64,000 bases of DNA from Ophioderma brevispina (Eukaryota; Echinodermata; Ophiuroidea; Amphilepidida; Ophiodermatidae). Where the stretch lies: contig JAMKCH010088206.1 of NCBI GenBank assembly GCA_023653785.1, forward strand, positions 1-64,000, in the 5' to 3' direction. A program made the translations under genes and the position numbers. Each line of letters opens with the position of its first letter. The stretch's first letter is position 1. Of this stretch, positions 28,254 to 63,188 are shown one piece after another. Below the pieces are notes generated by a model. It was given only the letters and a program-made list of their open reading frames with translations. It made no database searches and had not been told where the DNA came from.

Positions 28254-28257
28254 TTAA

Positions 28258-38658: not shown

Positions 38659-39441
38659 TCACAAGTAATATTTTTGTTCATATAATTTAAATAATCTATC
38701 TACTTCTTCCCTGTGTTCTACATTTAACATGTGGGAACGCCCACAGACGGAGGGTGAAAGTACGATGTTAGTTTTTAAAATTTGTAGAGTTTCGGTTTCC
38801 CACGTCTTTCCCCAAATAAATGTACTATCGGATTTTTCTTTCATATATTTTACTTTTAGTGTGCTCTTATTTATACATTTCGTCACCGTTCCAATGCTCC
38901 ACCCCTCTTCCCATGCCACCGCGATGTAATCACCCTCACGAACAACTTCGGTGTCTGGGAGCCAGTCTGGTTTGGGAGCTACGGGTTCTGGGCGGGATGG
39001 CCTGCACTTGGGACTGGGTTGAGGGTTGGGTTTAGGGCCAGCTGGGAGGGCGATTTTTCGCCGAGATGTAGGTTTACATTTACGTTGAGTGGCTTTGGGG
39101 CGGGATGCAGGGGTAACTTCAGGCGGGGCTACAGCAGTGGCCTTTGGGCGGGATGAAGGAGCGGGTTTTGGGCGGGATGAAGGAGCAGGTTTTGGGCGGG
39201 ATGAAGGAGCGGGTTTTGGGCGGGATGAAGGAGCAGGTTTTGGGCGGGATGATGGAGCGGGTTTTGGGCGGGCTGCAGGAGCGGGTTTTGGACGGGCTAC
39301 GGGAGTAGATTTTGGGCGGGTTGTGGGAGTAGGTTTTGTGCGGGATGCAGGACTGCGTTTGGGTTGGGATGCAGGGCTAGGGGTATGTGGAGATGCGTCT
39401 TCTTTTACTCTGTCGCCGTGCCACATAACTGCGTCCCCAGT
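38659..39441 (-). CDS. Last exon: PKPAPSSR repeats plus Tudor-like module
   Basis: Terminal exon of 783 nt; acceptor ttaactacag. It begins TGDAVMWHGDRVKED and ends at a TGA at 38661-38659. About 110 residues are basic and Pro-rich and include a tandem array of the octamer PKPAPSSR. The rest is a folded-looking domain: EVVREGDYIAVAWEEGW, IGTVTKC, LKVKYMKEKSD, FIWGKTWETETLQIL, then a basic/hydrophobic tail. The GDY-V/I-A-V-aromatic-x2-GW-x2-G-x-V pattern resembles small beta-barrel Tudor/SH3-like modules common in invertebrate transposon proteins; this is pattern-level similarity only. No clear AATAAA follows the stop; a TA-flanked MITE starts about 60 bases downstream of it. Confidence 0.75.
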   Translation of the reverse strand, partial: TGDAVMWHGDRVKEDASPHTPSPASQPKRSPASRTKPTPTTRPKSTPVARPKPAPAARPKPAPSSRPKPAPSSRPKPAPSSRPKPAPSSRPKPAPSSRPKATAVAPPEVTPASRPKATQRKCKPTSRRKIALPAGPKPNPQPSPKCRPSRPEPVAPKPDWLPDTEVVREGDYIAVAWEEGWSIGTVTKCINKSTLKVKYMKEKSDSTFIWGKTWETETLQILKTNIVLSPSVCGRSHMLNVEHREEVDRLFKLYEQKYYL

Positions 39442-42400
39442 CTGTAGTTAAAAGATAAAAGATAAATTATAAATGTCAATACATTAAACCACCGATAACG
39501 TATGGGCGGCTATTACTGTCAAAAGTATCTCAAAGACTAAACAAGGTCTCAAATACAAAGAAAGACGTCAAATAATTATGAACAAGGTCTCAACTACAGA
39601 AAAAGGTGTCAAATGCAGAGAAACATGTCGAAGGTCAAAAGTATCTCAAAGATTAAATTAGGTCTCAAATACAATGAAGACGTCAAACAATAAGTCTAAA
39701 CAGGTACAGTCGTCCGCAATTCCAAAATTTGAATTTAATGATTCATTTGAGGTGAATTCGAATAAGTCGTATTAAATTGTATTACGACTTTTGTGAGTGT
39801 AAGCGAAAGTCGTTATCGATTTCAAGTTCACCAAGCATGACACCCGACTCGAGGCCGTACACTTCGGCTTATATCACCAAGCAATGCGAATTCACAATCA
39901 GTGCTTAGTGTAATCAATTGCAACACAAATTAATTAATCCTTATATAGTTATTTTAGAAAAAGTGAAATCGATAACGACCTTTGCTCAGTGTTAACGCCA
40001 TATTAGTTTGTAAGAAACCTCGTACACTCTAAATAGAAGTGTTAATGATATGGCTAACAGTTATTTAACACTTCAACTTGTTAAAACAAAACATCACTTG
40101 ACCTCTTTGACTAGGTTAAAGGTCGCATAGGGGTCAATACCATATGAATTGACACTGTCTTAGTCAATGATGCATGAGACCAAGTTTGGTCAAAATACAG
40201 GAAAGAATGTGAGTGCTAAAAAGTAATTAATTTGATTAGGCCTAACACTAAAACACGTTTACATCGAAATATTAACATGTTGCCTGATAAATTATGAACA
40301 CTGCAACATGTTTGTTAGTTGAAATAAGGGATGAGCGACACACTATAGGGCCTACATGCTTTACTTAACAGATTTTAATCTTTGTTAACGCTTTGTCGAA
40401 GTAAGAGATTTTGCTGGTGTGTACGGGTTCATAGATATCACTCTCCATTCAATTACGTATTTTGTGTCCTTATACGGAAAGTAATTACTAAAATATTAGA
40501 TTTTTTTCTTATAAGGCTGCGCTTTTGGTATTATGTTAGGATACCCATGCTTGTTACAGGAATGCAAAAAGCTGATTTTTTTTGATTTAGCAAATCACTG
40601 ATATAATGCCTTTAACTCTAGTGACGCCTTACTTGAGCATGTTTGAAATGCAGGTCTATAGGCTTTATAGATCATCAGATCAAGATGGGTATGCAATGCA
40701 TAAGAAGTTGAGCAACGATACCTCATCGGGTGTAAGGTGTATTTCGTGATCCTCAGCCTCGTCCTTAAAAAAATGGTTAGGTTTTTGCATCACTTGAACT
40801 GAAGGCGTAAGTATAGATTTTGGAAATAACTTTTTTCTCGAGAATAAAAAAAGTGAAGCACAAACACAAATTATGGTACTGGAATCACGAAATGCATACC
40901 AACCAGGTTTCTCAATCTGGTAATTTTATCGGCAAGTTGACGTTCGTAAAATTCAGATATCGCTTTCTGTTAAGTACATTGAAATACTGTTGTGCTACCT
41001 TACATGCATGCATCATTGAAAGATTCACTTTTTCAATTATCAGGAAAGAAATGTTAAAATGTACCACTAAGACCCCAATTTTGAAGAAAATGCACACTTT
41101 ATTCTTGAATAGAAATGTTTAAAAAGATCATCTTTCTAAGGTAATTGACCACTTCTCCAATGCAAAACATTTTTTTTAAATTCCACATAATGAAAACCGC
41201 CGCACCTCACAAAGTCAATGGCTAAACGGATACAATCATTTTAATAGGCCAATATTCCTTCAATTAGTATAAGTCTTTTCGATGTATTAGCAGCAACGTC
41301 ATGACTACACAAATAAATGCATAAACAAATAAACAAGGAGAACTTACCTTAACACTTTTCCAGTTCTTACCATCAACCATGGCTACACCGTCCTCTCTTA
41401 GCTTTTTTAAAACCATGACTGTGCAATGTTCTGTAAATTGAATTTAAATGATGATTAGGCCTTGTTTCCTTATCACAATAAGGAAAATAGCAATATTAGT
41501 ACCCCTGCAAGCTTATTAGCTCGCTGTATGGCTTTGTAGATGAACTTAATAATAGCTACTCTTCATCACACATGTATGTTGTTTTCAGAATCACATCTTC
41601 TCCACTTATATCCCTAACAATTTGTTAACTGCATTTAAATGCACTCTTGAAAAAAAATCACGGAGTGGACCCCTGCCTTTGTTAGAAATTGTCCTATAGA
41701 TTGGCAAGAAAATACTGCTACCTCTTTTTTTTTAGGTAATCATCATATTTTCCTATAGGGACGTTAGGGGTATATGCAACATCAACCTATAAAATGACAT
41801 TTAAGTATGCATGGTTATTACTATACTCCCCGCCTAAAAAAAATCCGAACGATGTTGAAATGGCGTACAACTCGCCTAATACCTAGTATGTCCTCCGTGT
41901 TTGTTGACGCATTCAGTCATTCTTCTGCCCATGCTAAGAAACAGTCGTTGGACATGATGGTGAGGTCAATAAGCAAACTCATAACGCTAACAACGCTCCT
42001 GGCATTTATTATTATAATTCACCTATACCTACATACCTTTTAATACAGAATTTTATATCGTTCGGATTTTTTAGGCGGGGAGTATATTAGACTTTATTTC
42101 AACACGGAGGCCCAATTCAACATAAAGCTGTTCTTCCATGCAAAACAGAAACACGCGCATACATTGTACATAAATTAAAAATCATATCTTAACCAATATA
42201 GAAGTTAATTACATTACATGTACAAATTTGGAGGAAACCTGAGTATATACAGTATGCAAAGTTACAGTAAAGAAACTTCTTTTTAGCTTATCTTTGAAAG
42301 TGTAGAATGTTACACAGTTCTGGATATTGCTTTCAAGCTTGTTGTCCCCATCGAACTTTCTTAATATTTACACCATTTATATTGTTATCTTGTCTACATT

Positions 42401-45400
42401 TACCTTAAAAGATCTGAGTCTTTGTCTAGAACCTATTAACATGAATTCTGTTTTATCAGTATTCAGACCAAATTTATTACTTTGCAAACTATTATAGTTA
42501 CAGCTTTTAAATCATGTATACATTTCATTGTAAGGGGAGTTAGAGGCATAATAAACGACAGTGTCATCTGCATACACATTAATTTACAATGAGAGACATA
42601 ATTGGGCAGATCAGTTAGCATTCCTCAAAGCAGTAAGTTAAATTATATCATTCAATTATTCAATCGAAAGTCTAAAAACAAACAACGGCATACTCAAGAA
42701 AATAAAATTGTGATAAATACTAGTATGACAATTACTTTTTGGCGGTTTTCAAACAAATTGTGTTTTTTTTGCATATACATAATGCTTTTCCATATACTAA
42801 TGACTGTGTGAAATAGCTAACGCTCAAATCGAAGTCCTTCATAAAGTTCATATACAAAAAACACAACTTTATTATAAATTTCCGGATCCGGAAATTTTGT
42901 TTATACACAGTATCCTATGACACTGTATACTACACAAAATTCGATACATCTCAAACTTTGGAATTGGGCATTTTAGGTGACTATCTATAGTTCCAGTTGA
43001 CTTTTTTCAATAAATGCACACAAAATTATATTTAAAAAATCTCTGAGTCGGCCTTTAAATTTAAACTATAGGTATGGGGCTAGTTTAAGAAGTGTTTTTA
43101 ATGTGTGTTTTTAAAAGTAAACGGTTCACTGTACTGCCCAGCAGCTGTAGCAGTAGCGCATAGCGTTCCCGGCCAGTTGGTGTAAAACATCTTCTCTGGT
43201 TTAAGTAAGAAAATTGTTAAAAACGTGTTTTTGCTTAAAGGTCCGATCGCTAATAGCCTCGTCCCCAAAAGCTCCAGATTTTACCGGAAGTGGTCAACAT
43301 TTCGGTATCAGAAGAAAGCTACTATTTTTCTCATTCACCATGTGAAATCTTAGAGCCAAAGGAGGTTTGGTTTGGAATTTGGATTTTGGATGTTAACAGC
43401 GAAAATGTGCACCATTTTGGTCGACTAATATTAATTTTACACAGTACTCTATGGGGCTTACAAAATCACGTTTTTAGCTCTTGCATTAAAACGGATTGAA
43501 ATAACGGCGCGAAACTTTACAGATGGGGTTTTGGAGTGAAGGCCAATCTATCAAGATGAAAACTTCATTTCCTTAATTCGGGCCATCCCCCTTTAAACGC
43601 AATTATAAAATACGGCGATTTTAAGGTAAAATCGCGCTTAGTTAAACAAGTTTTGGAATACGGGCCATAATGCCGTCACAAAGTCTTAAACTTACCCCGA
43701 TTCATTGCACCAGGCAGTCCAGGGGGAAGTAGCATGGTGGCATGGGCTACTCTGTTACCCTCTCCATCCAGGAGAACAATCTTTGAACTGTATAAGAACA
43801 ACCAACACGAAATTGATAATAATCATCTAGATATTATAAATAATTGTGAAAAGTGGTTAAAACAAAATCCAATATTTACTGATTATAGAATAATATTAAT
43901 TTGTATTTTAATTTTGTTGGTTAAACATGGATGGACACTACGACGCAGGGGACAAACAATATGGTTAATGTTGCAGACTATAGCTTGCTAATGATAATAA
44001 TACAATTAACATGATTAAACGCACATCATGATCTTCATCTTACCCCAAAAGAATTGCATGATCGATAGGAATATACTGCGTGGCCCAAATAAAAAATAAT
44101 TTGACCTATTATAAATCAAATATAAACACCTCAAAACAAGGTATCAAAACACACGAATCAGACCTCAAAATTAAAAAAAAAATGTGCATTGAACACATGT
44201 GATTGCAAATAAAATATTCTTTCGTAAATTTCGGTTAATCATTACGAAAACGATAGCCTACCGTTGCATAATTAATCATTTGAATGTCTGATCAAAGGTG
44301 TAATTTCAAACGATGATGACGATGAGTATGAGGAGGGGATGAGGTAAAAAGATGAGGAGGGGATGGGTGTAGAGGGGGAAGGAGGAGGAGATGATTGTTA
44401 TAAATTACTCACGTACCTGGGCATTATTGTTCCCGACTTTTGTAGCACCTTTTGAGACGGCGTGTTCACGGATACAAGTGGAGATGACAGTTCTTGTGCT
44501 CGAGCAGGCGAAGTTATAGTCTTAGTAGGTGCAGCAGCCAGCTCTTCTTGAAGGGGCGATGCGGGGGGCGATGCTGGTGGTGGTGACATGTCTGGCTGTG
44601 TAAGATCCGCTAACGAGCCGGTAACAGATAAAGGTGGGGGGGATAGTGCTTGTCCTCGACATGACGAAGCAGGGGAGGATGCGATGGGGGAAATAGGCGC
44701 AGTTTCCAACTCTTCTAGTAGGGAGGATGCGGAGGGCGATGTAGATGGTGGTGGCATTTCTTGCTGTGGTAGAGCCGGTAAGGGTGACAGTGGGGTTCGA
44801 CACACACGGCGTGATGGTTGTGGGGACCTTGGTGCTGACTCGCGAGCTGGAGACTCAGGCGGCGGCGGAGGGGGAGGAGATAGATCGGTGTAAACCTGAT
44901 AATACGGCCACTGCCATTGCGACATATAGTTCATCCAATAGTACGGAAAATATGAGTACGGCCAGGGTGTTGGTGGCCATGATGCCGGTTGTTGAGACGA
45001 CGGCGAAGGGTTTTGGGGTGGCAGTGCTGCAGTTGGTTGAGGTTGAAATGGTGGTGTTCCATGTACCAGATGTGCCTGTGATGGTGGTGGTCCAGGCGGC
45101 AAGGGTGGTTGGGTTGAGGTTGCTGGTGTTCTTTGCATAGTTTGTGCATGTGGTTGCGGCTGTGGTGTTGAAGCCGTCACCTTCAAGGCTCTCCTGCACG
45201 TCCTGAGATAACGTTGCACTTTGGTGTCAAGTAGGCTCACCAGGTCCTCTCTAGACTTGTGGTGGTCTAATATGCCTGGACACAGCGTTATTACCTACAA
45301 AAAGCGGAAAATTGTGATTGGTAGTTAAAACAAAAAAGTAGTACTTAATGTGAATAAAATAATAACACACAGCAAAAGTAATTTTAATCTGACGGTTTGA

Positions 45401-45765: not shown

Positions 45766-45799
<34 letters not shown>

Positions 45800-45958
45800 T
45801 ATTACACGATATTAATCATTCAGTATCATTACTCGGAGTTTCACGCAGCTATACACCACGATCTTCAGATGATTTTGAATGTTTATCATCTGAAGATCGT
45901 GGTGTATAGCTGCGTGAAACTCCGAGTAATGATACTGAATGATTAATATCGTGTAATA

Positions 45959-46037
<79 letters not shown>

Positions 46038-48480
46038 TTATTTTCCGGAATATATTAGTATAATTTAGCAAGTTGTAAAATATTTCATTTTTAGCAAGGA
46101 CATCGCCAAAACACTGGCACGCAATCGTATAAATTAACTGAAAATCATCCTTATCGTTCTCACAGTGACTCCCACTCACCTTTCTTACAACACCTTCCAT
46201 GAATTCGTCAACCTTTGTCAAGTTCACCGTGCTTAAGTGGCCGGGCAAACATCGCAATACAGTATCCGTTGCCCAACGATAGGATTTCTGTAAGAAAGTG
46301 ACAAAAAATAATATAATAGCGTATACGATATTTAAAAATAATTGAAATGTATCGCTCGAGATATTCAAAGGTGTATGTGCACGATGCTAACAATTTAAAA
46401 TACATCCGGGAAACACTACTGGAATCATTTATAGTTGGTGCTATAATTCCAAAATGAGTGGTAATTATTCAAATTTTATAACAGATTGTAAATGTCGAAC
46501 TAATTTCGTATATCCTGCGAGTAAAAAATGGGGCAAGATAACAGTGGGTGTTTTGACTGGTCTTATGATAATGGACGAGCTTTTAGTGTTTTGGTGACCA
46601 TTTTGAATTTCTGCGTTTCTTCGAAAATGTTCATTAATGTTTCTGTTTGGCACCCACAACAGATTCAGCAGGAAAAGCCGTTTTAGAAACCGGTGAAAAC
46701 ATGGGTATTTCCGTAAATTACGGCACCAACTTGAGAGATTTTGAGAGAAAAAATTCTTGAACAAATATATGGTAATACCATTCCTCATTAAAAAAATAAT
46801 CAAATTAGTCAAAAGTACTTTCAAAAACTTAAAAATATTGCAATAAAACTGCAATCCGGTTCCCCGTGTAAATGGGACAACAAACCAGTTTTCTGATTTT
46901 TTTTAAAGATAAATTTAATTACTGTGTGATACATATAGTTTTATATGTACATTCTGCAATCTCGGCCAAAATTGTTGGAACACTTTATATGTCTTATTAT
47001 AAACCGATCCCCCTCTCCCCTGATCAATGTTGAAACATGTCATTTTTTCCATGCGCTCTTATGACCACCCAACATTGATTGGTGGGGAAGGGGAGGGGTC
47101 AAGTGTTAGGGTTTGTTTCAAGCTTCGCAATAAAAGTTAGTTTTTTTCAGTGCGATCTCTATGGCCCATTTAGGCCTTCATTGCATTCGAAAATTACCAC
47201 GGGTGTTCCAACTACTTTTGGCCGGGATTGTGGTTATGAGAGGGCACAATAATGTTAATAGTACAAATGGTCATGCCTGCATATAAAACAATGTTTTTCA
47301 GGCACAAGAAAAAGACAAAATTAAAAAAGTGGCACCTAATCATGAAATGGGCCATAGACCGAGATAAGTCGTTTGGATCAAGTAGTCTGTTTTGCGCTCT
47401 GTTCAGCGAAGGAAATCAGTGTCCAGAAGAAAATCGGGCTATTTATCTTGAGGACCACTTCTACTATGCCTAGAAGTATCACAATAAAAGATTTGTCAAA
47501 ATGCTGGCAACTAAGTTTGAAATTCTGATGAAATTTGATTGTCCAAATCTGACCAGCACCAAACTCCTTCAAAAAGTAAAGTGTAAAGAAAGCAGAATAA
47601 ATCACTGATTTTTCTGAAAACAATTACCCCCTGCATGTTCAGTCTTAAAAATGGATAGAAGAGATAGTAAGGATAATCATGATAATACTATGCGATGGAT
47701 TGATGGTATATACATCATTTTGGTTGCATATGCTGCTTGAAAATGATTGGAGAGCTGAGTGCAGTAGACTTGTTAAATGCTAACCAATTACACATAACCT
47801 TTTGTGACTACACATTCAGTGATATGATAATGACCAATGTTAAAATAAATGTCAAATGTGTAGTCACAATTATTGGGACTACCGTTTGGCGTGCTATATC
47901 GGTTTGACGAGAAATGGAAATAAAATCTTTTATTTCGGTAATGCTTGATGTAACCTCAACACAATTTCGGTTAAAAAGAATTGATTTTTTTTATCCAATC
48001 AAGTTCAGACGATATATTGGCCAACTTTATTATGGACATGATGAGGATGAGAAACAAATCCAATACATATTCCAGCCATTCTCATGTTTATAACAAATTA
48101 AACAACAAAATACTGTTCAAATAAACATTCCATGCATCTCCGGTTCTGTGAACTATAGACGTTCAAACGAAAACATTTGTTATATACTTAAAATTTATAA
48201 CATATCCAAGATGTTTAAAAGTCATATTCATAAATATTATACTTACAAAGAAATGATTCCGTGGGTCTAGACTGCACAACCTTTTTCGAACCCGATCTCT
48301 TCTCCATTGTGAATATATCCGTTACATGTTCAGCCGTAAATTGCAGTGGCATAGGTCTGTGAAGCACTTTCTTACGGTTCTTGATAATGGCCTCAATCGT
48401 TTGTTCATAAGGTACATTCTTCCATGAACTTGTACAGTTATAACTGCAAGCGGTGTTCGGACTGCTGTCGACTGTGTTGC
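38659..48480 (-). CDS. Proline-rich protein with Tudor-like C-terminus, probable accessory gene of a CACTA transposon
   Basis: Multi-exon minus-strand gene, unnamed. Exons in transcript order: possible 48480-48247, then 46287-46180, 45294-44417, 43787-43696, 41430-41348 and 39441-38659. The last five join in phase at GT-AG sites into one open frame of about 640 codons. Order of parts: a helical-looking N-terminal block (KSYRWATDTVLRCLPGHL, then VITLCPGILDHHKSREDL and KVQRYLRTCRRALKV); a Pro/Ser-rich low-complexity block of about 225 residues; a compact beta-looking module over the next two exons (KIVLLDGEGNRVAHATMLLP, HCTVMVLKKLREDG, TGDAVMWHGDRV); a PKPAPSSR tandem repeat; and a C-terminal module (REGDYIAVAWEEGWSIGTV) with the look of a Tudor/SH3-like fold. 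It lies divergently from a CACTA transposase gene 5 kb away. The role as a DNA-binding or accessory transposition protein is inference from that position. It could instead be a host gene. Confidence 0.62.
39137..39345 (-). repeat. Coding minisatellite, 24-bp unit
   Basis: About five near-perfect plus several degenerate 24-bp units encoding PKPAPSSR in the last exon of the minus-strand gene. Unit number is likely variable. Confidence 0.85.
39518..39690 (+). repeat. Approximately 118-bp tandem repeat
   Basis: GTCAAAAGTATCTCAAAGA starts near 39518 and near 39636; both are followed by GGTCTCAAATACAA and GACGTCAAA. Intronic. Confidence 0.7.
40735..40900. mobile_element. Family A MITE, internally deleted short copy
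   Basis: Left AGGTGTATTTCGTGATCC, right GGAATCACGAAATGCATACC, only about 165 bp apart. The interior keeps the CTCAGCCTCGTCC block. Confidence 0.62.
41348..41430 (-). CDS. Internal exon HCTVMVLKKLREDG
   Basis: Exon of 83 nt. Acceptor ttacag, donor AAG/gtaagt (strong). With the split Glu codon it encodes 27 residues, HCTVMVLKKLREDGVAMV then DGKNWKSVK, in phase with both neighbours. It forms the second half of the beta-looking module that ends in TGDAVMWHGD. Confidence 0.72.
41824..42084. mobile_element. Deleted Tc1/mariner element retaining transposase C-terminus
   Basis: 261-bp element with inverted ends TACTCCCCGCCTAAAAAAAA then TCCGAACGAT, complemented at the right, flanked by TA. It lies in an intron of the minus-strand gene. 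The interior keeps a short coding remnant on the minus strand. Confidence 0.82.
41876..41950 (-). pseudogene. Tc1/mariner transposase C-terminal remnant
   Basis: Minus strand reads RLFLSMGRRMTECVNKHGGH then TRY and a stop at 41878-41876. The ending matches the usual C-terminus of Tc1/mariner transposases, where a basic M-P-R-R-like stretch leads to GGHTKY/GGxTxY and stop. A TGA lies upstream in frame, so only the last 25 or so codons survive. Confidence 0.72.
42835..43054. mobile_element. Family C MITE copy, partial, reverse orientation
   Basis: Contains TTCCGGATCCGGAAATTT and CTCTGAGTCGGCCT/TTAA at its right end, matching the family C element in reverse. The left end is missing. Confidence 0.6.
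43239..43592. mobile_element. TTAA-flanked MITE, family B, complete copy
   Basis: 354 bp between TTAA (43235-43238) and TTAA (43593-43596). Ends AGGTCCGATCGC and GGGCCATCCCCCT. The interior includes AGCCTCGTCCCC and TTACCGGAAGTGGTC, also seen at 55544-55690. Lies in an intron of the minus-strand gene. Confidence 0.8.
43696..43787 (-). CDS. Internal exon KIVLLDGEGNRVAHATMLLP
   Basis: Exon of 92 nt; acceptor ttatacag, donor CGGG/gtaagt. It carries one base, 30 codons and one base, so both split codons (Ser and Glu) are restored. Content: KIVLLDGEGNRVAHATMLLP followed by PGLPGAMNR. Confidence 0.72.
44417..45294 (-). CDS. Large internal exon, Pro/Ser-rich
   Basis: Exon of 878 nt. Acceptor tttttgtag, donor CCCAG/gtacgt. 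It starts VITLCPGILDHHKSREDL and KVQRYLRTCRRALKV, then becomes Pro/Ser/Gln-rich with runs such as PPPPPPPESPARES. Repeated blocks of the type PPSTSPSASSLLEELETAP, MSPPPASPPASPLQEELAAAP and ISPIASSPASS suggest an approximately 45-residue imperfect internal repeat. The last bases join the next exon in phase. Shadow frames on both strands are open because of the biased composition. Confidence 0.75.
45729..45769. repeat. 15-bp-arm palindrome
   Basis: TGCGTTGAGTACTCT and AGAGTACTCAACGCA around an 11-bp loop, directly next to an AT microsatellite. Confidence 0.85.
45770..46034. repeat. AT microsatellites flanking a 78-bp-arm perfect palindrome
   Basis: (AT)n at about 45770-45796 and 45962-46034. 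Between them, arms 45796-45873 and 45885-45962 are perfect complements around the 11-base loop TTTGAATGTTT. In an intron of the minus-strand gene, just downstream of exon 46287-46180. Confidence 0.9.
46180..46287 (-). CDS. Internal exon KSYRWATDTVLRCL
   Basis: Exon of 108 nt, 36 codons, phase 0 to phase 0. Acceptor tttcttacag, donor AAAG/gtgagt. It encodes KSYRWATDTVLRCLPGHL, then STVNLTKVDEFMEGVVRK, and joins VITLCPGILDHHKS of the next exon. The other two frames of this exon contain stops, so this is the coding frame. Confidence 0.66.
46955..47233. mobile_element. MITE with GGCCAAAA..TTGGAACAC ends
   Basis: Left CAATCTCGGCCAAAATTGTT then GGAACAC; right GTGTTCCAACTACTTTTGGC then CGGGATTG. 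An inner inverted pair CCCCTGATCAATGTTG / CAACATTGATTGGTGGGG is also present. Tc1-like ends, no ORF; lies in the suspected long intron of the minus-strand gene. Confidence 0.65.
47801..47869. repeat. Small fold-back GTGACTACACATT
   Basis: GTGACTACACATT and AATGTGTAGTCAC about 40 bp apart. Confidence 0.7.
48247..48480 (-). CDS. Possible 5' exon of the Pro-rich protein gene
   Basis: Stretch with one open frame up to a strong donor (TTT/gtaagt at 48247-48241) reading SSWKNVPYEQTIEAIIKN, then HRPMPLQFTAEHVTDIF and MEKRSGSKKVVQ. The ATG at 48483 is in a different frame that soon stops, so either this exon is internal, with an acceptor among the ACAG/GCAG sites near 48465-48475, or translation starts at the Met in RPMPLQF. 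It ends in phase 1, whereas exon 46287-46180 needs phase 0, so an undetected exon of length 3n+2 should lie in 46288-48246 if both belong to one gene. Confidence 0.38.
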
Positions 48481-49028
48481 CATCTTAACGGTTAAAACTA
48501 AACTGACAGTGGGTTAACTTTCGAAATGTTCAAGTTCTACCGTATTCGATGTCAACTGATGAAAGAAATTTAGCGAATTATTCTCAAATAATCGATTGTG
48601 TAATCGAATGTGTGTGATTGGCTGGCTCTTCCACGAAGTTATTATACTATACTAAGTTGAATTACTTGTTGGTCCTTTTAAACCACTTATGTTAGCACCT
48701 TCTTGGTCCTTTTTATCCACGATGTTAGCACCTTTTAATGCTATTGTTTATTTCTAGAAGATACCTGGAGAAAGCAATTACGATTCCTCGCCTGTTTAAT
48801 TTTCTTTTCAATATATTCAATGTGGGATGCTAATCTTGGTTAATCTATTTTGGATTAACCAATATCACATCCCAAGTCTTGTGGCAAAGGTATTGTCTAC
48901 TTAACGTGTTTATGTTGTATTGTTAGGAAACAAAGACAGGCATGTATTATGGTAGCTAGGATTCAGACCATAGTTGGTTTGTGGTGAGTGCCGCTATTGA
49001 CTTTGACATCGGCGGCACCCTCCCAGGG

Positions 49029-49037
49029 TATAAATAG
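49029..49037 (+). promoter_or_regulatory. TATA box, candidate promoter of the transposase gene
   Basis: Sequence GGGTATAAATAGAGG with TATAAATAG at this position. A CTTCACAG initiator-like start site lies about 30 bases downstream, near 49061. It is on the + strand, upstream of the transposase coding exons, in the divergent intergenic region. Alternatively it is a relic promoter from an LTR or other element. Confidence 0.45.
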
Positions 49038-49060
49038 AGGAGTACTCGAGTGCATGCTTC

Positions 49061-49630: not shown

Positions 49631-49660
49631 CACTCCAAAAGAGTGAAATTCACTCTTTTG

Positions 49661-53055: not shown

Positions 53056-53147
53056 AGGCTTGTATTTAAAAAGTAAAACAAAAATTGTCACACCACACTT
53101 AAGTTCCCTATGTTTTTGGTGGTGATGACATCAAATTGTTTGGCATG

Positions 53148-53243
53148 CAACCTTAACCCTGACCTAGACCCTAACCCTAAACCATGACCCTAAATCCTAT
53201 CCCTATAACTCTATCCCTTAACCCTATCCGTAACCCTAGAAAC
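53148..53243 (+). repeat. Degenerate CCCTAA telomere-like array
   Basis: Runs such as ACCCTAACCCTAAACCATG and ATCCCTTAACCCTATCC: about a dozen imperfect CCCTAA units inside the fold-back element. Confidence 0.7.
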
Positions 53244-53697
53244 TACTTCAAATCAATTGTTCCCTTTAAAAGAATCGGAGTAGCGAACCCTTCAGCTTAT
53301 TCGGAAAAAATAACCTCCTTAGTATTCGGAATAACGAACCTTTTTTGAAATTCGGAATTGCGTATCCCTTTTAATATTCATAATACCTGCGAGCCTTATT
53401 TTCGGAATAGCGAATCTTTTACTTGCAGAGTATGTTATACTTGATAGAGAATACACGCTCCACAAATATCCAAAAATCACTGAGTTACATGTATGATTTT
53501 TCGTTAGATTTTGAGATTTCACATCGCAACGCTTTGTTGACGGCCATAAATGTTTGACAAGACGTCCAACACCAGAAAGCCAACTACTTTAATTGGCTTT
53601 ATACTAACAAAATACGAGTGAGAGACTTCAGGTGTACGTTGTGGAACGCAGTATTATTAACTTTATTTTCTGTAACTTTCATAATTTCTATTTGTAG

Positions 53698-53811
53698 GAA
53701 GCCATGGATAGAGAAGCAAAAATAGCGTGTCCGTGTAATTCGTGCGCAGGTACGAAAATGGTCGCTGAAAGAACATATCGGAGGCATATGCAGAAACAGT
53801 CAGTTGCAGAG
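53698..53811 (+). CDS. Transposase first coding exon, CPCNSC motif
   Basis: Acceptor ctatttgtag; ATG at 53704; donor GAG/gtaatt. It encodes 36 residues: MDREAKIACPCNSCAGTKMV, then AERTYRRHM. The CxC-x2-C followed by a His about 14 residues on matches the zinc-knuckle-like transposase-associated domain at the start of plant and animal tnp2 proteins. An acceptor just upstream of the ATG implies an untranslated exon further 5'. Confidence 0.75.
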
Positions 53812-56800
53812 GTAATTACTAAATCTGTAATTTGTGATTCACAAGCACTGAGTTGAAAGACTTTAAAAAAAATGCTCCTTAGCCCAAATTGTTGGCCTAA
53901 ACGCTTTTCAAACTCGAACGTTAGCATTTGGTTCAAAGCGAATAACTCGCAGTAAATGCTAACAAAAATAGCAATTGGAAGGATATAGGAGACGTCACAC
54001 CAGTTGGTCCAATGTTTGTGTATTTTAATCAATAATATATATTCTTGAATTGGGCACATTAATGTAGATATTCATAAGCGAACTGTCGCAGTCGCGACAA
54101 ATTTATAGTTTTTCTTCGTTTGTAGAACAATATGCGGTAGAATAATAGACTGTTAGAACGCCGCGTTCTGACATACCGACACATGGGAAAAGGCCGTTTT
54201 GAGAAAATTAAGTGTTAAATTCTGGCAAGATGTATTTTTTTTATGCAATTTGTTTTTCAATATCAAATTGTAAGATAAGTTATTGTAGACATTCATTTGC
54301 ATTACTACTAAAGTTCGCCCCTTGCCTGCCTGCACTACTGATTACTTATGTCTGCACGTCACCTTCACTAAAGTAACAAATTAAACTTAACTAGTGTCAA
54401 AAGTCCCTCATGTGCCAATATGTCAGAACGGAATAGTTCAAAACATTCGGCTCTTCACACAATTGCTATATAGTGGCAACATTATCACATGTTGGTACAT
54501 GGTGTTTGTCTCATAGATTTTGTAGGTGCAGTATCCGGTGCAGTATTTTTAGTTTTAAGATTATTTTGGTGGCAAAAGTTTTTGGAAAATAACTGTTTTG
54601 GGTATTCGCCGCAAACTATTTTTAACGAGAACCTTCAAGTGCACAATGTGGCAATTGTATAGAGCCGATAAAAACTATTCTTGTATCAGACGCGTTAATC
54701 AGGGATTACCTGGAAGACCTTTCGATGAGCTTGAAAGAGAAGAGTGTTAGGAAAAAGTTTGACATGTCGACGGAATGTTTATCAAAGGCCCGCAAATCGA
54801 TGGTCTATATGTCAATCATCGCAAATCGATGGTCCATTATGTCAATCATTTTCATTAAAAGGAAGTTACAAGTCATGTTCAATAGCGGTACCCGCAATTA
54901 ATGTTCCTAAAGTGACAATTAAGTAGCTTGAAGTTGCCGTGCAATTGCTAAGTTTTCATTCATTCTGGGGGTTTTACTCAACAAACACGGCCGAGCTTCA
55001 GAAGATAACTCTTCCTCGCGGCACCGGCTATGTTTACGGCAATTTTGTCTATAGGGATGTGGGATAGCAACTGTCTTAAATGTTGGCGCATATTGGGGCG
55101 AGAATCATTGGTTGGCGCATATTGGGCCGGACTCATTTTTACAGTGTGTCAAAAAATTCACTTCCGTATGACGTCATCAAAATACGTTTTCTGATTGGGT
55201 GGGCAATATTTTTTGCAACACTTTGACAGACACACACACACCGATACATGAAACACGTAGGGTTTCTTGGACGCAGAAACCAATGGAGCATTTTCAATTT
55301 TCTCTGACGTCATCTTAATACTGTTTTTTCTGATTGGATAGGCAAATGTCCATTGTAACACCAACGATGTAAGGAAGGACATAGGCAATTATTACACAAA
55401 CTATTAAACCAGAGTTATGGGGTTTCGATAACAATGGAAGCATTTTTGAATTTCTCTGACGTCATTTAATACGTTTTCTGATGGATGAAGCTACTAGTAT
55501 TGTAACACCTAGATAGTCATATTACACTGCAGGTTATTTTTAAAGGTCCATGGCCCGATCGCTATAGCCTCGTCCACCAGAAGCCCCAGATTTTTACCGG
55601 AAGTGGTCATATTTTGTATCATACGAACGCTACTATTTTTCCCATTTGCCCTGTGAAATCTTAAGACTGCCTTTTTTGGTGGCTGCTTATGTAATGCTAG
55701 AAGTAGGCTAATAGAAACAAACAATAAAACAGCAAAACATTTTCTACTAACATGTTAGATGTCACGGCGATAACAGTTAACACCAACATTTTCTTAATTA
55801 GTGTCCTACAACAATACCTATGGTCCAAATTAAAGGGCAGTTTAATTAGCTTTAATTTGAATATATAATTCAAATAATTAAAAGATCGTTAAGATAAAGA
55901 AACACTAATACCGAATCTTGTATTCTCCCATAGACTTTACACGGTTACCGCGCGTCCCGAGGTCGCGTGTCCCAATTGCTCCACCATCCTTCGTTTACTA
56001 CTTAGTCCTTCATTTTAATTACTGAAGTCTGATCAAGATAATTTAGGTATCAACTTATAGCTAACTAAATATGCTTTACAATGAGTACTTATTTGAAGTT
56101 TCACCACAGGTTTAACAATTTCTAATCATTATAAACATGTCGATTTCTCTAAAATTCACAGAATGTAGCTTTTCATCACGTTAATGTGTTTTGTATTTGG
56201 GCTACTTACATGTAAGAATTGTATTCAGCACTGTATGTTCACTGCAGTTTCCTTTCAAATTCACAACACAGTTTTTAAAAGTTGAGTTTTTTTCTTTGGG
56301 GGGGGGGGTGATTCCAGGCCCAAATTACGGATTTTCCCATGTTCATGGGGGTATATGGCACCTTTAAAACTCGGAAAAAATTAAATATCAGTGAAAAAAT
56401 ATTCTGTAGGATGTTTTGATCACCAAACAAATTAAAAAAGTTTAAAATCTCACATTGCTAAGTTTGATTTTTGGCACACTTCGAAACAATTCTGGCCCAC
56501 TGTGCGGCGTAAACAAGCATGGGTGTAAATGTTGGGTGACATTTTATGTGCAGGCCGTGCGGAAAGAAGTACAAATAATATTGATAAGTGCCTACGTCTA
56601 CCGACCGAATGGTGAATGTGCACGTAAGATTAACATGGATTACTAATGTTTTACGTTTTCAGAATGATATGAAAATCTCAACTTTGAAGTATTTAAAGTC
56701 GTTGGACGCTGTGGATCACGAAATGCCCTTAAGTTAAATACAAATACAATTCGCCAAGGCCTTGATTACTCATTTCAATTTAATACGAATTTTACAACGT

Positions 56801-59800
56801 GAAAGTGACATGTCTGATGTTAATTTTCTTGGTGAATGTTTGAAATGAAAATGCATGTCGCATTTTCTGATGTTTCTTTTTTGTCTTTGTACAGGGCGAA
56901 AGCTCGACAAAACGCCCACGGACAGAAGAATCGGTACAGGAAGGCCCCCTTCACGAAATGACAGAAATTACTGGATTTGTGTTGTGCTTGAGACTTTTAA
57001 TGATTTATAACGCGTTTTCTGGGGTGACCCAGCAATGCATGAACCAAATCATACGGCTTATCACCGATTTGTTGGGAGGATTAGTCCCTAATAGTAAGCT
57101 ACCAAGAGACTTCAAGTCCATAAAACACATAACAATTTGATAAAATTTGTATGACACCGATGGTGGAAATTACAGCGTGTCCCAAGAGTGTGAACTGTTT
57201 ATGTAGATGTGCAGAAATGTCACCAAAGAAGAATGTCTTGGAAAGGATAGCGTCAAAAAATATTTCTATCTTCCATTGATTCCACGTTTGAAGCAGCTAT
57301 ATTCGAACAAAGAAGTATCTCAGAATCTGCAGATTCACGGCACCCAGCTGCCTTCCCACAACCCACAGGACATTAGGGATTCAGCGGCGTGGAGAGAACT
57401 CTATGGTGAAGGTGGGGAGTTCGATGGAGATTATAGGGCTCTCGCACTCGAATTTAGTGCTGATGGCTTCCAGCCTTTTCACCATACTACCACCAAGCCC
57501 TACTCCATCGAACAACAAGCCTCTGTAATTCTAAACCTACCACCCGAAATGAGGACCAATCCAGGATTGTTCACGACAAAACGACTGATTTCAGGTAGGT
57601 AAAATTGACTATCGGTATTATTTGGGGAACTCCATTGTGACTGACGCGACAATTTTAACCAACTTGTGTTTCTTTTTAACTGTTGTGAGTCCCATGCCAG
57701 TTAAAATGACTTTTTTACTATCATTTTTAACAGTGTCGAATTACAAGACGACAGCACTTTTAAAGTCCTTTAAACTTACTATTAACTTGGTATCAGAAGA
57801 AAGAATATAGCACATGGAGTACTGTATACACTATTTTCCGGTTACTGTAAACACACCATATTTTAAGCCTGTAGCATGATTGATAAAAAAATAGGAAAGA
57901 AGTCAGTCAAATATTACGCAGACGAGATGAGAAAAATACAAGTTTTCTAACCCGGGCATTCATGTATTTTCCCGGGTATTTTCTTTTCAGCAACACAACT
58001 GACTTCGAATGGCCGCTATCAAAAAAGTTTAAAATAGATTTGGTCATGTATATTTTTGTTGGATTTCGCGTTGTTACCAACTTTTAAATTGTTAAAAATA
58101 CGAGTAATCTGGTGGATATTAGTCTAAACTAGCATGCTAAGCTCGGCGATGGTTGATATTAAAGGGACACTGGCACATTTGAAAAAAAAAACAACTCTAT
58201 GCGCGTATTTTCACTTGGCAAGAAAAACACCCTATCAGTTTTTGGGTTGAATTTCCTATGATGTTTTGTGTGTTTGCAACAGGTCCACAAACCCCGAAGG
58301 AGGAAGCATTCAATATTTATTTGAAGCCGTTCGTTGACGAAGTGGAGCTGCTGGCAACGGTTGGGGTAGACGGTGTGTGGGACGCCTACCGTGAAGAACA
58401 TTTTAAACTGAAGGCCAAGATATTGTTGCATGTTCACGACTTCCCGGGCCAGTCGAAAATCTTCCATGGGGCTGGATGTGGAGGAAAACACCCGTGTCCA
58501 AAATGCTTGGCAGAAGGTATGTAAATAATTTTAGGGACTTCACATGATGAAGATCACAATATATTTATATGGACAATATACTCTTTAACTGGTTGCTTAA
58601 AAGTGAAATTGAGGCCTAATTAACATTCTGCTATACGCCCCTCCCTTTCCTTGGCAGTAGAGATCTAGATTTGCTTTTAGCTGAACTACCAAGCCCTTTA
58701 AATGCCCTCAATCCGGACCCTCTGCACTCCCACTTTGAAGGAAAGCCCACTTCAGAGTAAGATAATAGCAGAGTTTTACGACAGTGCAAAATAAAATACT
58801 GCTGAGCCGTTGCCGAAGCCGTATTTTTGCGCGGGAAGCCCACATATTGCTTTTGTCGTCGAAGTCGAGCTGTCTCACATAGTGTAGCATTTTGTTTACT
58901 AATGCTTAGGTATAAGACCACATAAATTGTCAGGACTTTGTAGGGATGATAGAAACGTGATATAGAAGGGAAAGGTGATTTGAATCAATATGCAATATAT
59001 CGGAAATCTGAATAAAATGTTCCAAACATCGGAATTCTTAAGTGATTTTCAAGAGATCTTGTAGCAGAGAATGTGTTTTTGAAGAAGGAATCATTCTAGT
59101 TTGTTTTACACACACCGTACCCTATACCCTAGGGTGGTAATAAAAATGTTGCAACAGCTAGCGCAGTAAATTTTACACTTATTTGTTTTACAGGTACTTA
59201 CTCGCGCCAAATGAACAAAATGATATTTCGAAGTGGCCGTGAGTTCCTAGAGGAAGGTGACCCACTTCGTAAAGACACACGCTTACCCGGAGGGGGGATT
59301 GAGGAAGGCACACCAAAAACGAGAGATTTCCAAGAGGAGACGGTAATGGCTGCTGTCAGTGGGGTCCTGGCTGACGTTGTCCGGGAAAGTCAACCAAGGT
59401 CAAAAGAGAGAAGGTATATAAGTGAATTGATATTTCCACGTCTTTAATGTTTCTGAAAGTCGTTTTCCAGCTAATATACCTAGTCTAACACCCAGTCAGA
59501 TATATACACACACCGTACCCCTACCCAACCCCACACACTAGTGTAAAGAGAGCGTTTTGGTGCAAATGAGTTGTTGGGTTTTAAACATGTCAAATTTCTG
59601 AACTGGCATCAGATACCGTCAATTGTGAACATAACATTTAAAGAAATATTAAAAAAAATACGTTTATAAAAAGTGCTATAAGATATAACAAATTGTGGTG
59701 CAAAAGAAATAGAAATGAGTCTCTCTCTCTCTCTCTCTCTGACTCTTTGATTTGTAGCTTTACATGCTTTATGACAATGTTTTTCTTTTACAGGAATGCA

Positions 59801-62800
59801 AACGCCGTGCACGCGGCAATCATGGCACATGGAGGGCGAAAACGCTGCAGTGAGTTTGATCGCTTAGGTGACAAAGAAGCGAGCAAGATCGTAGTGGAGG
59901 GGATGCACACTATTCAGGTACGTCAGTATATGGTTAGGCCTATCCTGCCAGATAATATTATACACATCTCAAACTTGAGATTTTTTATATCATCTGAACC
60001 GTTAACATTAGTGTACCTAATCTTACGTGCAAATTCGGTAGTATCTGTGAGAAATTCGTAATTTTGTATTTTGTGTCCGTAAACGGACAGAAATTACAGC
60101 ACAGTGGCTTATGGGGCCGTGGGAAACACGCAATCGCTCATAATACAAAACCGCAAGCTCGGGATCAACTCAAACTTTATGAATAAGCTTTTCTGAAGGA
60201 TATCTAGCGGACAATGAATAAAACAGAACGGTGCTAAAATCACGAAATGCACCCTTAATTGCCAAACACATTTTATTATACCATAACCCTGTTGTGTACT
60301 CTCGGCGGAATGATACATATGGAAGAGATTGAAGCGCAATGCGCGTTTGGATTGTTGTTAAAAGCATGTATCATAAACGCCTAATGTACGTATTTTCAAT
60401 TTTATTGGTGCAGGGCGTCGGTAAGAACCTCCACGGTCTCATCAACGGGCACAAGGACAGTAGCAAGGTTAGAGCGCACGAACATGCAATCAACCGTTTC
60501 CAGGGATGCAGTGGTGAAGATGCAAGGTAATTTAAACATGGAGATTAAAAAAATGGTAGGGGCTCCATTTCGGAGCGCCGAAATGGAGGGGATTATAAAA
60601 AAAACCTGCTAATTAAAGTATGATTTTGAAGTATTGTATAAATTTGTAAAGCGCCGTTTTTGTATAAATTTGTAAAGCGCCGTTTTTACTTAAGGTGGGT
60701 GTTAAGGCAGAAATTCAAAGGAACTTTTTTTGCATATCTTTTCCAACATAGATAAAAGTATACATATTTGAGAAGGAAATGACTCAAGGTATCCAAATAT
60801 GATAACCTTTTTTCCCAAAAATGTGTAATTGTTGAGAAAATAATGAAAAATGGTGATGTTCACTCAGTTTTTTTGGTTCCTATAAAAATATAGAAAATTA
60901 TATGAAAATGTTTCTTGTTCATTTTTGTATCCTAGAGTCATAGTTCTAGGGTCGGTATTTCCCATTTCTATCAAATTGTTCACTATATTTCAGATTACTT
61001 GCCAAAAAAGTCAAAAATCCGCGTGCGTCAATTTGGAGCAACGCCAAGATTGTTCAAAGTTGGGCCTAAATCACGATGCATTTCATTTCTTACCTGTTGC
61101 TCATATGAATTTTGTCCAAATTTTGTTCCGTTTCGCTAGAAAATATGGCCTTATTCCAAAAAACAAGCGCTTTATCTCTTATTCTTCACACTGCTTCTGC
61201 ACCAGAAATTTTACTTCATATGGGTTCTTATGATCAAAATCCAACTTCTGTAAATTAATGGACATCAAATTTGCGGGAAATGTTTTCTTAAATTCACTAA
61301 AAAAACAAAATTTGTATAAGAAATGCCTCTTGAACTCTTTCAATGTGATAATTTATTTGGAGTTTTGATATTACGCGCCATGAAATTGACAAAAGCTTCT
61401 AATGTTTTACGGAAGAGTCTGAAAACTTACTGAAAACGTCTGGATATTTCGCTGCCAAAAATTTCCGTAAATTTACAGATGTATTTTTAACAGTGTATAC
61501 GTCTGCTGTACATATTAATCACCGTGTGAAACAGCTTCCTCTGGGTCGGCCTTTAACAAAAAAGCGATGTCTTTTTGCTATTTTAGGGGACGTTTAAACG
61601 ACGCACCGTTCACACACTAGAGACGACATGGCCAGAGCTGACGAGCGCGTAGCCTGCATAACCGTCCCACCAGAGAAAGGCTCTTTGCCAGCAGCCATTT
61701 TTAATGTGTGCCATTCCATGAAGAGCCATACATGGCATTTGGTGAGTATCATCTCCAAATTATATAAGTAGAACAATTGAAACATTAGGCCTACACTCCC
61801 TCGATCCGTACGTCTTGTAGGTCTAGAAGTACTTTAGAGGGGTTGACTCGATTTGTCAATAATTTTTACAATTGATAGAATGGCTTTCATCTCAAAACCC
61901 CACACACATTAATTTCATTTCTCCGTTTTGGACCCTTTAGACCCTTGGCTACCAACATCTCTATTTTTCAATAATTTATAGCTGTATTAAAATATCAGTG
62001 ATTTTCAGCGATTATAGGAGATTTTTAATATTATAGAAAAAGAAATAAGGTGAACTCTGAAAGCTGCTATATGTATAAACGCGAGCCTCTGCGAGTGAAT
62101 TTAAGGTATTTTCAATGTTTAATAGAAAGAGCATTCCTTGAAATCCTTTTTTCTACGGAAACTAAATTAATCGTCATAAAAAATGAAATATCTTACAAGT
62201 TTTCCGCCCAATTCCTGCGATTTTTTCAAGGGAAGAGCGTTATGTAAAAACGCGAGTCTCTGAGACTGATATTAAGACATTTTCAATGTTTAATAGAAAG
62301 AGCATACCTTGAAATACTTTTTTCTACGGAAACTAAATTAATCGTAAGATATTTCATTTTTTATGACCGGTTTTCTGCCCAAAACCTGCGATTTTGCAAT
62401 GGGAGAGCGTTATATAAAACGAATTCCAACACATTTCATATGTAAAAACGCGAGTTTCTGGGACTGAATTTAAGACATTTTCAATGTTTAATAGAAAGAG
62501 CATACCTTTAAATACTTTTCTCTACGGAAAGTCAAATTATTGTCCGTAAGATATTTCACTTTTTATGTTTTCTTTTTCACTCCGTTCATATAATCTTGTG
62601 CGAAATTTTTGGGACATTTGGTCATAATGACCCTTTCCACGCTCCCCTATATCAATGTTGGCTGATATTGGTACCTGTGAGTGATGATGCTGTATGTTTA
62701 CCTCAAGATCGTTTAGCCAATAAAATGTGTTAAATAACGTCATTAAAATATGCAAAATCTTATTTTCCCTTTTATTTAAAAAAAAAGTTTTAAAAACTCT

Positions 62801-63188
62801 TGTAGAACTCGATTCCTGCTCTTTGTATTATACTTATTTAGTTTAATTTGAAAAAAGGGGAGTACACATATATATTTTTACGGCTCCAGTTATTTTACGT
62901 TCTGCACGTTGTGAGTCCCAGCTGCCAGTCAAAACGCGGTTTTTTTACACGTTTATTTTTAACAGTGTACTGTTCTTACGTGTTTTACAGGTGCTTACGA
63001 AGGGAGTATACCTGTATGCGTTAAGGGGGCTACTTGGCAGGTCACAGCGTGTGGCATTATTTGCGTTTTGCCATATAATGGGAATTGTTTCGGCAAAGAC
63101 GGTGTACACTGACCTGATGCCGATGATACAGCGACATCTTCACCGGAGCATGGTCATCATGGATCGTGAATTTCCAGAGACGCTAAAA
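53698..63188 (+). CDS. CACTA/EnSpm transposase (tnp2 / Transposase_21 plus DUF4218), partial, with in-frame stops
   Basis: Gene for a DDE transposase of the CACTA (EnSpm) superfamily, which cuts and pastes elements with short CACT-type ends. Coding exons 53698-53811, 56895-57594, 58283-58516, 59194-59413, 59794-59917, 60414-60526, 61621-61741 and 62991-63188 all join in phase. Order: N-terminal Cys motif CPCNSC with downstream His, as in transposase-associated domains; helical block ending KLPRDFKSIKHI; tnp2 core with FYLPLIPRLKQLY, LALEFSADGFQPFHHTTTKP, LISGPQTPKEEAFNIYLKPF, HDFPGQSKIFHGAGCGGKH and CPKC, and VEGMHTIQGVGKNLHGL; then MKSHTWHL and LRGLLGRSQRVALFAFCHIM, typical of the DUF4218 start. 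Three stops (57138, 57141, 57204) interrupt the frame without a frameshift. The Asp of the family's DxMH motif is Glu-Gly here. The C-terminal half is not seen. Superfamily call is strong; activity is doubtful. Confidence 0.85.
54789..54848 (+). repeat. 30-bp tandem duplication
   Basis: CGCAAATCGATGGTC..TATGTCAATCAT occurs twice in tandem. Confidence 0.8.
55158..55475 (+). repeat. Three-copy repeat with TGACGTCAT motif
   Basis: Three units of about 145 bp, each with TGACGTCAT, AATAC.GTTTTCTGAT and GTAACACC-like parts at about 55164, 55307 and 55458. TGACGTCA is a perfect CRE palindrome, but a regulatory role is not shown. In a transposase intron. Confidence 0.6.
55544..55690. mobile_element. 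Family B MITE, left end only
   Basis: TTAA/AGGTCCATGGCCCGATCGC at 55540, then AGCCTCGTCCACC and TTTACCGGAAGTGGTC. The right end is absent. Confidence 0.6.
56560..56728. mobile_element. Family A MITE, partial
   Basis: Right end GTGGATCACGAAATGCCC/TTAA at 56729-56732, with GAATGTGCACGTAAGATTA inside. Left end not seen. Lies in the transposase intron before exon 56895. Confidence 0.6.
56895..57594 (+). CDS. Transposase exon with N-terminal helical block and tnp2 start; three in-frame stops
   Basis: Acceptor tttgtacag, donor TTTCAG/gtaggt. 700 nt in one continuous frame: a KRPRTEE basic linker, MTEITGFVLCLRLLMIYNAF, KLPRDFKSIKHI, then stops TGA-TAA at 57138-57143 and TAG at 57204-57206, then NVTKEECLGKDSVKKYFYLP, LIPRLKQLYSNKE, DIRDSAAWRELYGEGGEF and LALEFSADGFQPFHHTTTKP. 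The frame before and after the stops is the same, so they are nonsense changes or lie in a short intron. A 99-nt intron 57116-57214 (gtccat...gtgcag) would remove all three and keep the frame, but its donor is poor. Confidence 0.72.
58283..58516 (+). CDS. Transposase exon: GPQTPKEEAF to DFPG and CPKC
   Basis: Acceptor tttgcaacag, donor GAAG/gtatgt; 234 nt. It encodes GPQTPKEEAFNIYLKPFVDE, corresponding to the family GPK-SP...D-YLQPL-DEL block, then HDFPGQSKIFHG, GCGGKHPCPKC. The DFP aspartate lies where the first catalytic Asp of the CACTA DDE triad is usually placed. The closing Cys pair belongs to the insert between the first and second catalytic residues. Confidence 0.85.
59194..59413 (+). 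CDS. Transposase exon YSRQMNKMIFRSGREFLEE
   Basis: Acceptor gttttacag, donor GAGAAG/gtatat; 220 nt. It encodes YSRQMNKMIFRSGREFLEE, DPLRKDTRLPGGGIEEG and TVMAAVSGVLADVVRES. This is the variable segment between the Cys motif and the D/ExMH motif. Confidence 0.8.
59794..59917 (+). CDS. Transposase exon with EGMH motif
   Basis: Acceptor cttttacag, donor ATTCAG/gtacgt; 124 nt. It encodes NANAVHAAIMAHGGRKRCSE and VVEGMHTIQ. In tnp2 proteins the corresponding motif is usually Asp-x-Met-His and supplies the second catalytic Asp; here Glu stands in that place. Confidence 0.82.
59960..60254. mobile_element. Family A MITE, partial, inside a transposase intron
   Basis: Contains TTATATCATCTGAACCGTTA, ACGTGCAAATTCGGTAGT, CCGTAAACGGACAGAAATTA and the right end ATCACGAAATGCACCC/TTAA. 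Left end decayed. Confidence 0.65.
60414..60526 (+). CDS. Transposase exon GVGKNLHGLINGHKDSSKVR
   Basis: Acceptor ttggtgcag, donor GCAAG/gtaatt; 113 nt. It continues the MH motif with GVGKNLHGLINGHKDSSKVR and HEHAINRF, matching the family pattern H-x2-x-G-V-x-K-N-L after MH. Confidence 0.82.
60643..60689 (+). repeat. 28-bp tandem duplication
   Basis: GTATAAATTTGTAAAGCGCC followed by GTTTTT occurs twice, head to tail. Confidence 0.75.
61621..61741 (+). CDS. Transposase exon ending MKSHTWHL
   Basis: 121 nt. The in-phase acceptor is cacacactag at 61611-61620, which lacks a good pyrimidine tract; the better-looking acceptor at 61577-61586 gives a stop in every useful frame. It encodes DDMARADERVACITVPPEKG, LPAAIFNVC and MKSHTWHL, with a donor TTTG/gtgagt. 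MKSHTWHL matches the K-x-HDxH start of DUF4218. The acceptor choice is the least secure part of the model. Confidence 0.65.
62075..62560 (+). repeat. Three-copy tandem repeat in transposase intron
   Basis: Units start near 62077, 62247 and 62446 with AACGCGAGTCTCTG-like sequence followed by TTTTCAATGTTTAATAGAAA and TTTTCTACGGAAA. Units are 170-200 bp, diverged. Confidence 0.72.
62991..63188 (+). CDS. Transposase exon, start of DUF4218-like region
   Basis: Acceptor gtgttttacag, donor CTAAAA/gtatgt; 198 nt, phase 0 to 0. It encodes VLTKGVYLYALRGLLGRSQR, VALFAFCHIMGIVSAKTVY and IMDREFPETLK. The family pattern is LLPVALRGLLP...R..I..LC.FF..LCSKV...LE..FPP. No later exon was recognised before the window ends. 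Confidence 0.83.

Follow-up and report, generated by a model that had tools for sequence, protein, structure and literature searches.

In the plant CACTA elements Spm/En, Tam1 and Tgmt*, a transposase and an accessory protein are produced from overlapping transcripts, and accessory proteins of the TNPA type are reported to diverge fast, according to excerpts of two papers on these elements (PMC2613891, PMC8195511). In animals, the CACTA-related element SmTRC1 has a single gene, whose alternative splicing yields its further, accessory-like proteins, as described in part of the text of DeMarco et al. (PMC1636069). The locus considered here lies in a stretch of 64,000 nucleotides of the ophiuroid Ophioderma brevispina (GenBank assembly GCA_023653785.1, contig JAMKCH010088206.1, positions 1 to 64,000 of the forward strand; this whole stretch is called the window). 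It comprises a spliced gene for a tnp2-type transposase on the plus strand and a gene for a Pro-rich protein, its possible partner, that diverges from it on the minus strand. The tnp2 transposase in the window is damaged and its neighbour is unclassified, and the two may be the remains of one old CACTA/EnSpm-type DNA transposon.

The locus shares with plant CACTA elements the tnp2 transposase, whose N-terminus is Transpos_assoc-like and whose C-terminal part is DUF4218-like, as well as a large, intron-rich layout and a nearby second gene with no detectable relatives. It differs from them in the orientation of its second gene, which is opposite to that of the transposase; moreover, a Transposase_24/TNP1 domain was not reported in the parts of the partner that were scanned, and CACTA ends were not seen. 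The Transposase_21 domain is common to this transposase and to SmTRC1 and the TRC elements, whereas the eumetazoan box A of TRC is absent from the partial, damaged protein of the window. PIF/Harbinger elements are two-gene DNA transposons too, with a transposase and a separate Myb-like partner; there the analogy concerns the layout only, as the transposase family differs. Among the titles and abstract openings covered by a literature search, no divergent two-gene CACTA element was described. Copies with both genes, if there are any, would be evidence that a CACTA element, probably outside plants, can carry a second, divergent gene, and would offer a system for probing the function of accessory proteins.

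The plus-strand transposase gene

The transposase gene consists of eight exons on the plus strand (53698-63188), and all seven of their junctions are GT-AG and in phase, which bears out the original prediction of a spliced tnp2-type gene. Its best match to PF02992 (tnp2, Transposase_21) falls on exons 3-4 (E 2.4e-18, 66.5 bits against a cut-off of 28.6), with another (E 9.5e-7) on the portion of exon 2 downstream of the stop codons described below; PF13963 (Transpos_assoc), on exon 1 joined to the start of exon 2, is below its cut-off (E 2.9e-4, 21.4 bits, cut-off 27.7). A search of 5.8 billion proteins with the transposase gave 6995 candidates, three of them at E <= 0.01: an unnamed protein of 872 aa in ENA (P0001), one Capsicum protein and one Solanum protein (P0003). 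P0001 is 27% identical to the transposase over 584 columns, in an alignment that extends through the part resembling DUF4218, a domain that P0001 carries by precomputed annotation; exons 7-8 had no Pfam match of their own in the Pfam scans. Since P0001 extends about 240 residues past its aligned part, the right edge of the window truncates the gene. The CMC motifs, taken from the part of PMC12730594 that gives them (two catalytic Asp and C(2)C), are represented in the spliced protein by DGFQPF (residue 226) and DFP...CPKC (residue 322), and the H(3,4)H pattern has one match, at 531, in a protein that is partial at the window edge. Taken together, the Pfam tnp2 matches and the alignment to the tnp2/DUF4218 protein P0001 support at the sequence level the classification of this gene as a CACTA/EnSpm-type transposase, as had been claimed. 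Matches of Glyco_trans_4_4 (E 0.051) and Zn_Ribbon_YjdM (E 0.17) to the transposase were taken as chance.

Scans of contigs with the transposase alignment gave 66 pattern matches and no relatives among viral contigs, and 53 pattern matches with one hit among genome contigs. The latter (CAMDZK010000104.1, here L001) is 5 kb long and recorded as part of a Peptostreptococcaceae metagenome-assembled genome (MAG); its plant-like tnp2 gene at 551-3145 has 36% and 42% identity to the Solanum protein P0003 in two segments, and the contig is probably plant DNA contaminating a bacterial genome record.

The transposase copy is damaged. Three in-frame stops in exon 2 (57138-57140, 57141-57143 and 57204-57206) fall at the position of the cysteine cluster in P0001, P0003 and P0002, the last a plant protein annotated as Transposase_24. 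By reading, an alternative frame across the stop-bearing stretch resembles the cysteine cluster more closely, a resemblance that suggests disruption of the frame. Motif I (DG...WP), which is present in most, not all, elements according to the section of DeMarco et al. on this motif (PMC1636069), was not matched in the transposase protein, whose WP is gone; P0001, P0002 and L001, the contig with the plant-like gene, all match it, and P0003 has the WP and fails at the F/Y position. The absence of WP may be read as damage or as divergence. Box A ([LVI]-D-x-[LM]-H-x3-L-G) was not found in the transposase protein, which is cut by the window edge and damaged in exon 2.

This damage bears on the idea that the two genes are a domesticated pair, that is, host genes retained from a transposon, with splicing that avoids the broken stretch. 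All eight transposase exons keep their splice sites, dispersed repeats cover none of the 4006 exon bases of the two genes (exon A of the minus-strand gene included) amid introns that look resident, and the domestication of animal copies without ends is raised by DeMarco et al. (PMC1636069). However, the stops lie inside exon 2, and the donor and acceptor pairings tried by reading for an intron that would remove them were out of phase or had no pyrimidine tract; the missing WP of motif I also argues against domestication, which is considered unlikely.

The minus-strand gene and its product

The Pro-rich gene on the minus strand is probably real over exons B-F, whose four in-phase junctions give 647 codons and a stop, with no damage. 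In dinucleotide shuffles, 0 of 300 attained the 298-aa open reading frame (ORF) in the region of exon C and 0 of 300 the 262-aa ORF in that of exon F, the shuffled maxima being 235 and 234. The six frames of each exon were also compared with a codon model trained on the transposase. The proposed frames of exons B (narrowly, 4.8 against 4.2), D and E were the best of six, whereas exon C (32.3 bits) was outscored by reverse frames at 44.0 and 44.6 bits and exon F (2.6 bits) by one at 25.0 bits; these reverse frames contain stops. Such scores in exons C and F, together with a longer frame of exon A that is out of phase with exon B, would be expected if low-complexity ORFs had merely been linked by chance splice sites, but the shuffles, the four in-phase junctions and the frames of exons B, D and E make an erroneous model very improbable.

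The 5' end of the gene is less clear-cut. The longer frame of candidate exon A has a codon score of 9.4 bits, where the 99% quantile of 48 background windows with an open frame is 6.7, and reaches its donor in phase 1, whereas exon B is open in phase 0 only. An alternative, overlapping frame with the right phase scores 2.9 bits over 36 codons (90% and 95% quantiles of 2.6 and 4.4 in 547 open windows). The mismatch might reflect an additional exon, a different donor or damage. A scripted search for an extra 5' exon with a donor score of at least 7 returned four internal candidates and one initial candidate, none of them convincing (the best had 3.7 bits over 26 codons). The claim of a spliced Pro-rich gene whose exons join in phase thus holds for exons B-F and fails for the longer frame of exon A.

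Regarding the encoded protein, a Tudor/SH3-like C-terminus had been proposed, of which a weak resemblance to Agenet is what survives: the C-terminus of exon F matches that domain below threshold (E 0.028-0.063, 14.2-15.3 bits against a cut-off of 27), the C-terminal domain had no PDB match up to E 10, and AlphaFold2 gave no usable fold for the last 105 residues, with a pLDDT (predicted local distance difference test) of 33. The scanned pieces of the partner, which come from outside its Pro-rich middle, gave chance-level matches only against Pfam, NCBIfam and PDB; NfeD (E 0.043-0.11), V-ATPase_C (0.035-0.1), DUF6927 (0.019) and ACAD9 (0.2) on exon A were taken as chance, as were the PDB matches of exons D-F (best E 0.39). 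Protein searches yielded 20 candidates for residues 325-410 of the exon B-F product, none at E <= 1, and 1574 candidates for a composite of the non-Pro-rich parts, none at E <= 10. A scan of viral contigs with a 149-aa part of the partner gave two pattern matches and no relatives, and contig L001 has no partner-like match (best E 0.28).

Resemblance to the accessory proteins of plants was also sought. Neither Transposase_24 nor a TNP1/En/Spm domain was among the Pfam matches of the partner at E up to 1 or 10, in scans of domain pieces without the Pro-rich part, where HMMER filters drop weak matches and the presence of the TNP1 model in the Pfam copy was unchecked. Comparison of the partner with P0002 gave no meaningful similarity (best E 0.37). 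Exons D and E and the start of exon F may resemble the TNP1/En/Spm domain pattern, a likeness confirmed by no search. It is doubtful that the partner is an accessory protein which combines a domain homologous to plant TNP1/En/Spm in these exons with an Agenet/Tudor-like chromatin reader, within a divergent two-gene CACTA element outside plants. If this were true, the transposase-plus-accessory architecture would predate the plant elements and the partner would target chromatin.

One element or two neighbouring genes

The most 5' coding exons of the two genes are 5.2 kb apart (48484 and 53698) and the genes are divergent, in agreement with the spacing of about 5 kb given by the original prediction. 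According to the reading proposed here, the locus would be a CACTA/EnSpm-type (tnp2) DNA transposon copy, old and immobile, with the minus-strand gene as its second gene; transcription of the two genes would start in a central region and proceed outward, and the ends of the element would lie beyond 38.6 kb on the left and beyond 64 kb on the right. The Pro-rich protein might help the transposase by binding to chromatin or to the DNA of the element, in the way that TNPA and TNP1 serve plant elements, although this TNPA-like role is a guess based on the gene arrangement. That both genes belong to one such old copy is given an even chance. In its favor, the partner is the immediate neighbour of the transposase, its exons join in phase and include long ORFs, the ORFs listed for 1-37 kb are short, and no host-gene domain exceeds its cut-off in the scanned parts of the partner.

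Several observations weigh against a single element. The window yielded neither ends nor target duplications nor a second copy of either gene, the partner shows no detectable relative and no match to plant accessory domains, and the excerpts cited above describe for Spm/En, Tam1 and Tgmt* an accessory protein made from transcripts that overlap those of the transposase, unlike the divergent arrangement here. The transposase is broken but the 647 codons of exons B-F are intact, as might be expected of a host gene. Additionally, the 5.2 kb between the genes contain no dispersed repeats (0 of 5213 bases), so that the repeat argument presented below is silent on a joint arrival of the two genes.

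The same contrast between an undamaged partner and a broken transposase, as well as the shared ends that were not seen, would be explained if the genes were unrelated neighbours, namely a one-gene tnp2 relic next to a minus-strand gene that belongs to the host or to another element. The single gene from which SmTRC1 derives its additional proteins also fits this explanation. Conversely, the scanned parts of the partner contain no domain of a host gene above cut-off, and the partner is rich in low-complexity sequence and tandem repeats and is at most 5.2 kb from the transposase with few other coding signals around. Unrelated neighbours are a serious but less probable explanation of the locus.

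As for the ends that a single element would have, terminal repeats enclosing both genes cannot fall inside the window because the transposase runs past its right edge. On the left, the five CACT[AG] sites in 30001-38660 are all located in 30862-33889, and no such site is within 4.7 kb of the stop of the minus-strand gene, in a search of CACT[AG] only (other types, for example the CCC ends of TRC, were not searched). Neither gene has a second copy within the window; a weak tblastn match of exon 1 at 13667-13602 (E 0.13) was taken as chance.

The age of the locus was approached by means of dispersed repeats, defined as blastn matches whose copies are more than 2 kb apart. These cover 2768 of 38658 bases (7.2%) in the flank left of the genes, 737 of 9826 (7.5%) in the span of the minus-strand gene, 657 of 9491 (6.9%) in that of the transposase, and 0 of 812 right of the transposase. 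With none in the exons, the repeat cover inside the genes is all intronic, and its density equals that of the flank, so that the introns look like ordinary resident DNA. We infer that the locus is long-resident and has gathered insertions in place, and it is probably immobile; the repeats may, on the other hand, already have been present in the ancestral active copy. What appears to be a single dispersed family occurs in both orientations in introns and flank (14762-14901, 27993-28268, 30873-31209, 35341-35551, 40733-40799, 56614-56734 and 59964-60253), and several of its copies have, by reading, a core like GGTGCATTTCGTGAT.

Within the gap between the genes, 49026-49350 could correspond to the transposase promoter and a 5' untranslated region (UTR) exon. 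It begins with GGGTATAAATAG at 49026-49037 on the plus strand, downstream of which are three tandem repeats of about 80 bp (79% mean column identity) and a GTAAGT that scores under the donor listing threshold of 7. The TATA pattern has five occurrences on the plus strand in 64 kb, two of them in the gap. If a start near 49.03 kb is correct, the two 5' ends would be about 0.6 kb apart. The gap also harbors, at 52509-53420, TATTCCGAA units in arrays that are inverted relative to each other and separated by about 0.7-0.8 kb, which resemble a fold-back element.

Coordinates and other features of the window

Table 1. Features of the transposase gene, the minus-strand gene and their repeats in the window
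Feature	Position	Strand	Basis
Minus-strand exon F with stop; 24-bp in-frame RPKPAP repeats, C-terminal domain weakly Agenet-like	38659-39441	-	262-aa ORF
Minus-strand exon E	41348-41430	-	Splice sites/phase; frame best of six
Dispersed-repeat copies in intron D-E, also in 1-38 kb	42747-43059, 43240-43596		blastn
Minus-strand exon D	43696-43787	-	Splice sites/phase; frame best of six
Minus-strand exon C, Pro-rich	44417-45294	-	298-aa ORF
Minus-strand exon B	46180-46287	-	Splice sites/phase; frame best of six, narrowly
Candidate 5' exon A, longer open frame; ends in phase 1, no join to exon B	48247-48484	-	GTAAGT donor; codon score
Alternative 5' exon, overlapping frame; ATG 48483 to GTAAGA donor 48376, joins exon B in phase 0	48376-48483	-	Codon score
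Candidate transposase promoter and 5' UTR; GGGTATAAATAG, three ~80-bp tandem repeats, GTAAGT	49026-49350	+	Weak
Transposase exon 1; ATG at 53704, Transpos_assoc-like cysteine motif	53698-53811	+	Splice sites, phase; PF13963
Transposase exon 2; N-terminal region with damaged cysteine cluster, beginning of tnp2	56895-57594	+	Splice sites/phase; PF02992
Damaged stretch; in-frame TGA-TAA 57138-57143, TAG 57204-57206	57138-57206	+	Inside exon 2
Transposase exon 3; tnp2 core, second Asp, CPKC	58283-58516	+	PF02992 with exon 4; motif scan
Transposase exon 4; end of tnp2 domain	59194-59413	+	PF02992, splice sites/phase
Transposase exon 5	59794-59917	+	Splice sites/phase; aligns with P0001
Dispersed-repeat copy in transposase intron, also in 1-38 kb	59964-60253		blastn
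Transposase exon 6	60414-60526	+	Splice sites/phase; aligns with P0001
Transposase exon 7; DUF4218-like part begins	61621-61741	+	Splice sites/phase; aligns with P0001
Transposase exon 8; DUF4218-like	62991-63188	+	Splice sites/phase; aligns with P0001

In the remainder of the window, the 26 listed ORFs of at least 90 aa in 1-37 kb are all shorter than 140 aa (by reading; they were not scanned against Pfam), and scans of the window with Rfam at gathering thresholds and for tRNAs found nothing. Two structures left of the minus-strand gene are similar to miniature inverted-repeat transposable elements (MITEs). The first, at 36709-37803, has 53-nt inverted repeat arms about 1 kb apart that are 74% complementary. 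The second, at 37800-38599, has an inverted repeat of about 28 bp (TACAGTRTGAGTCAAAATGATTGTTCCC) flanked by TA on either side; it comes to within about 60 bp of the stop of the minus-strand gene and by reading is like a MITE of the Tc1/mariner type. A perfect inverted repeat of 105 nt with an 11-nt spacer and (AT)n flanks is found at 45769-45989, possibly an assembly artefact or a hairpin. Further to the left, 14481-14777 and 14922-15218 are the two copies of a 297-bp direct duplication which, at 99.7% identity, is evidently recent.

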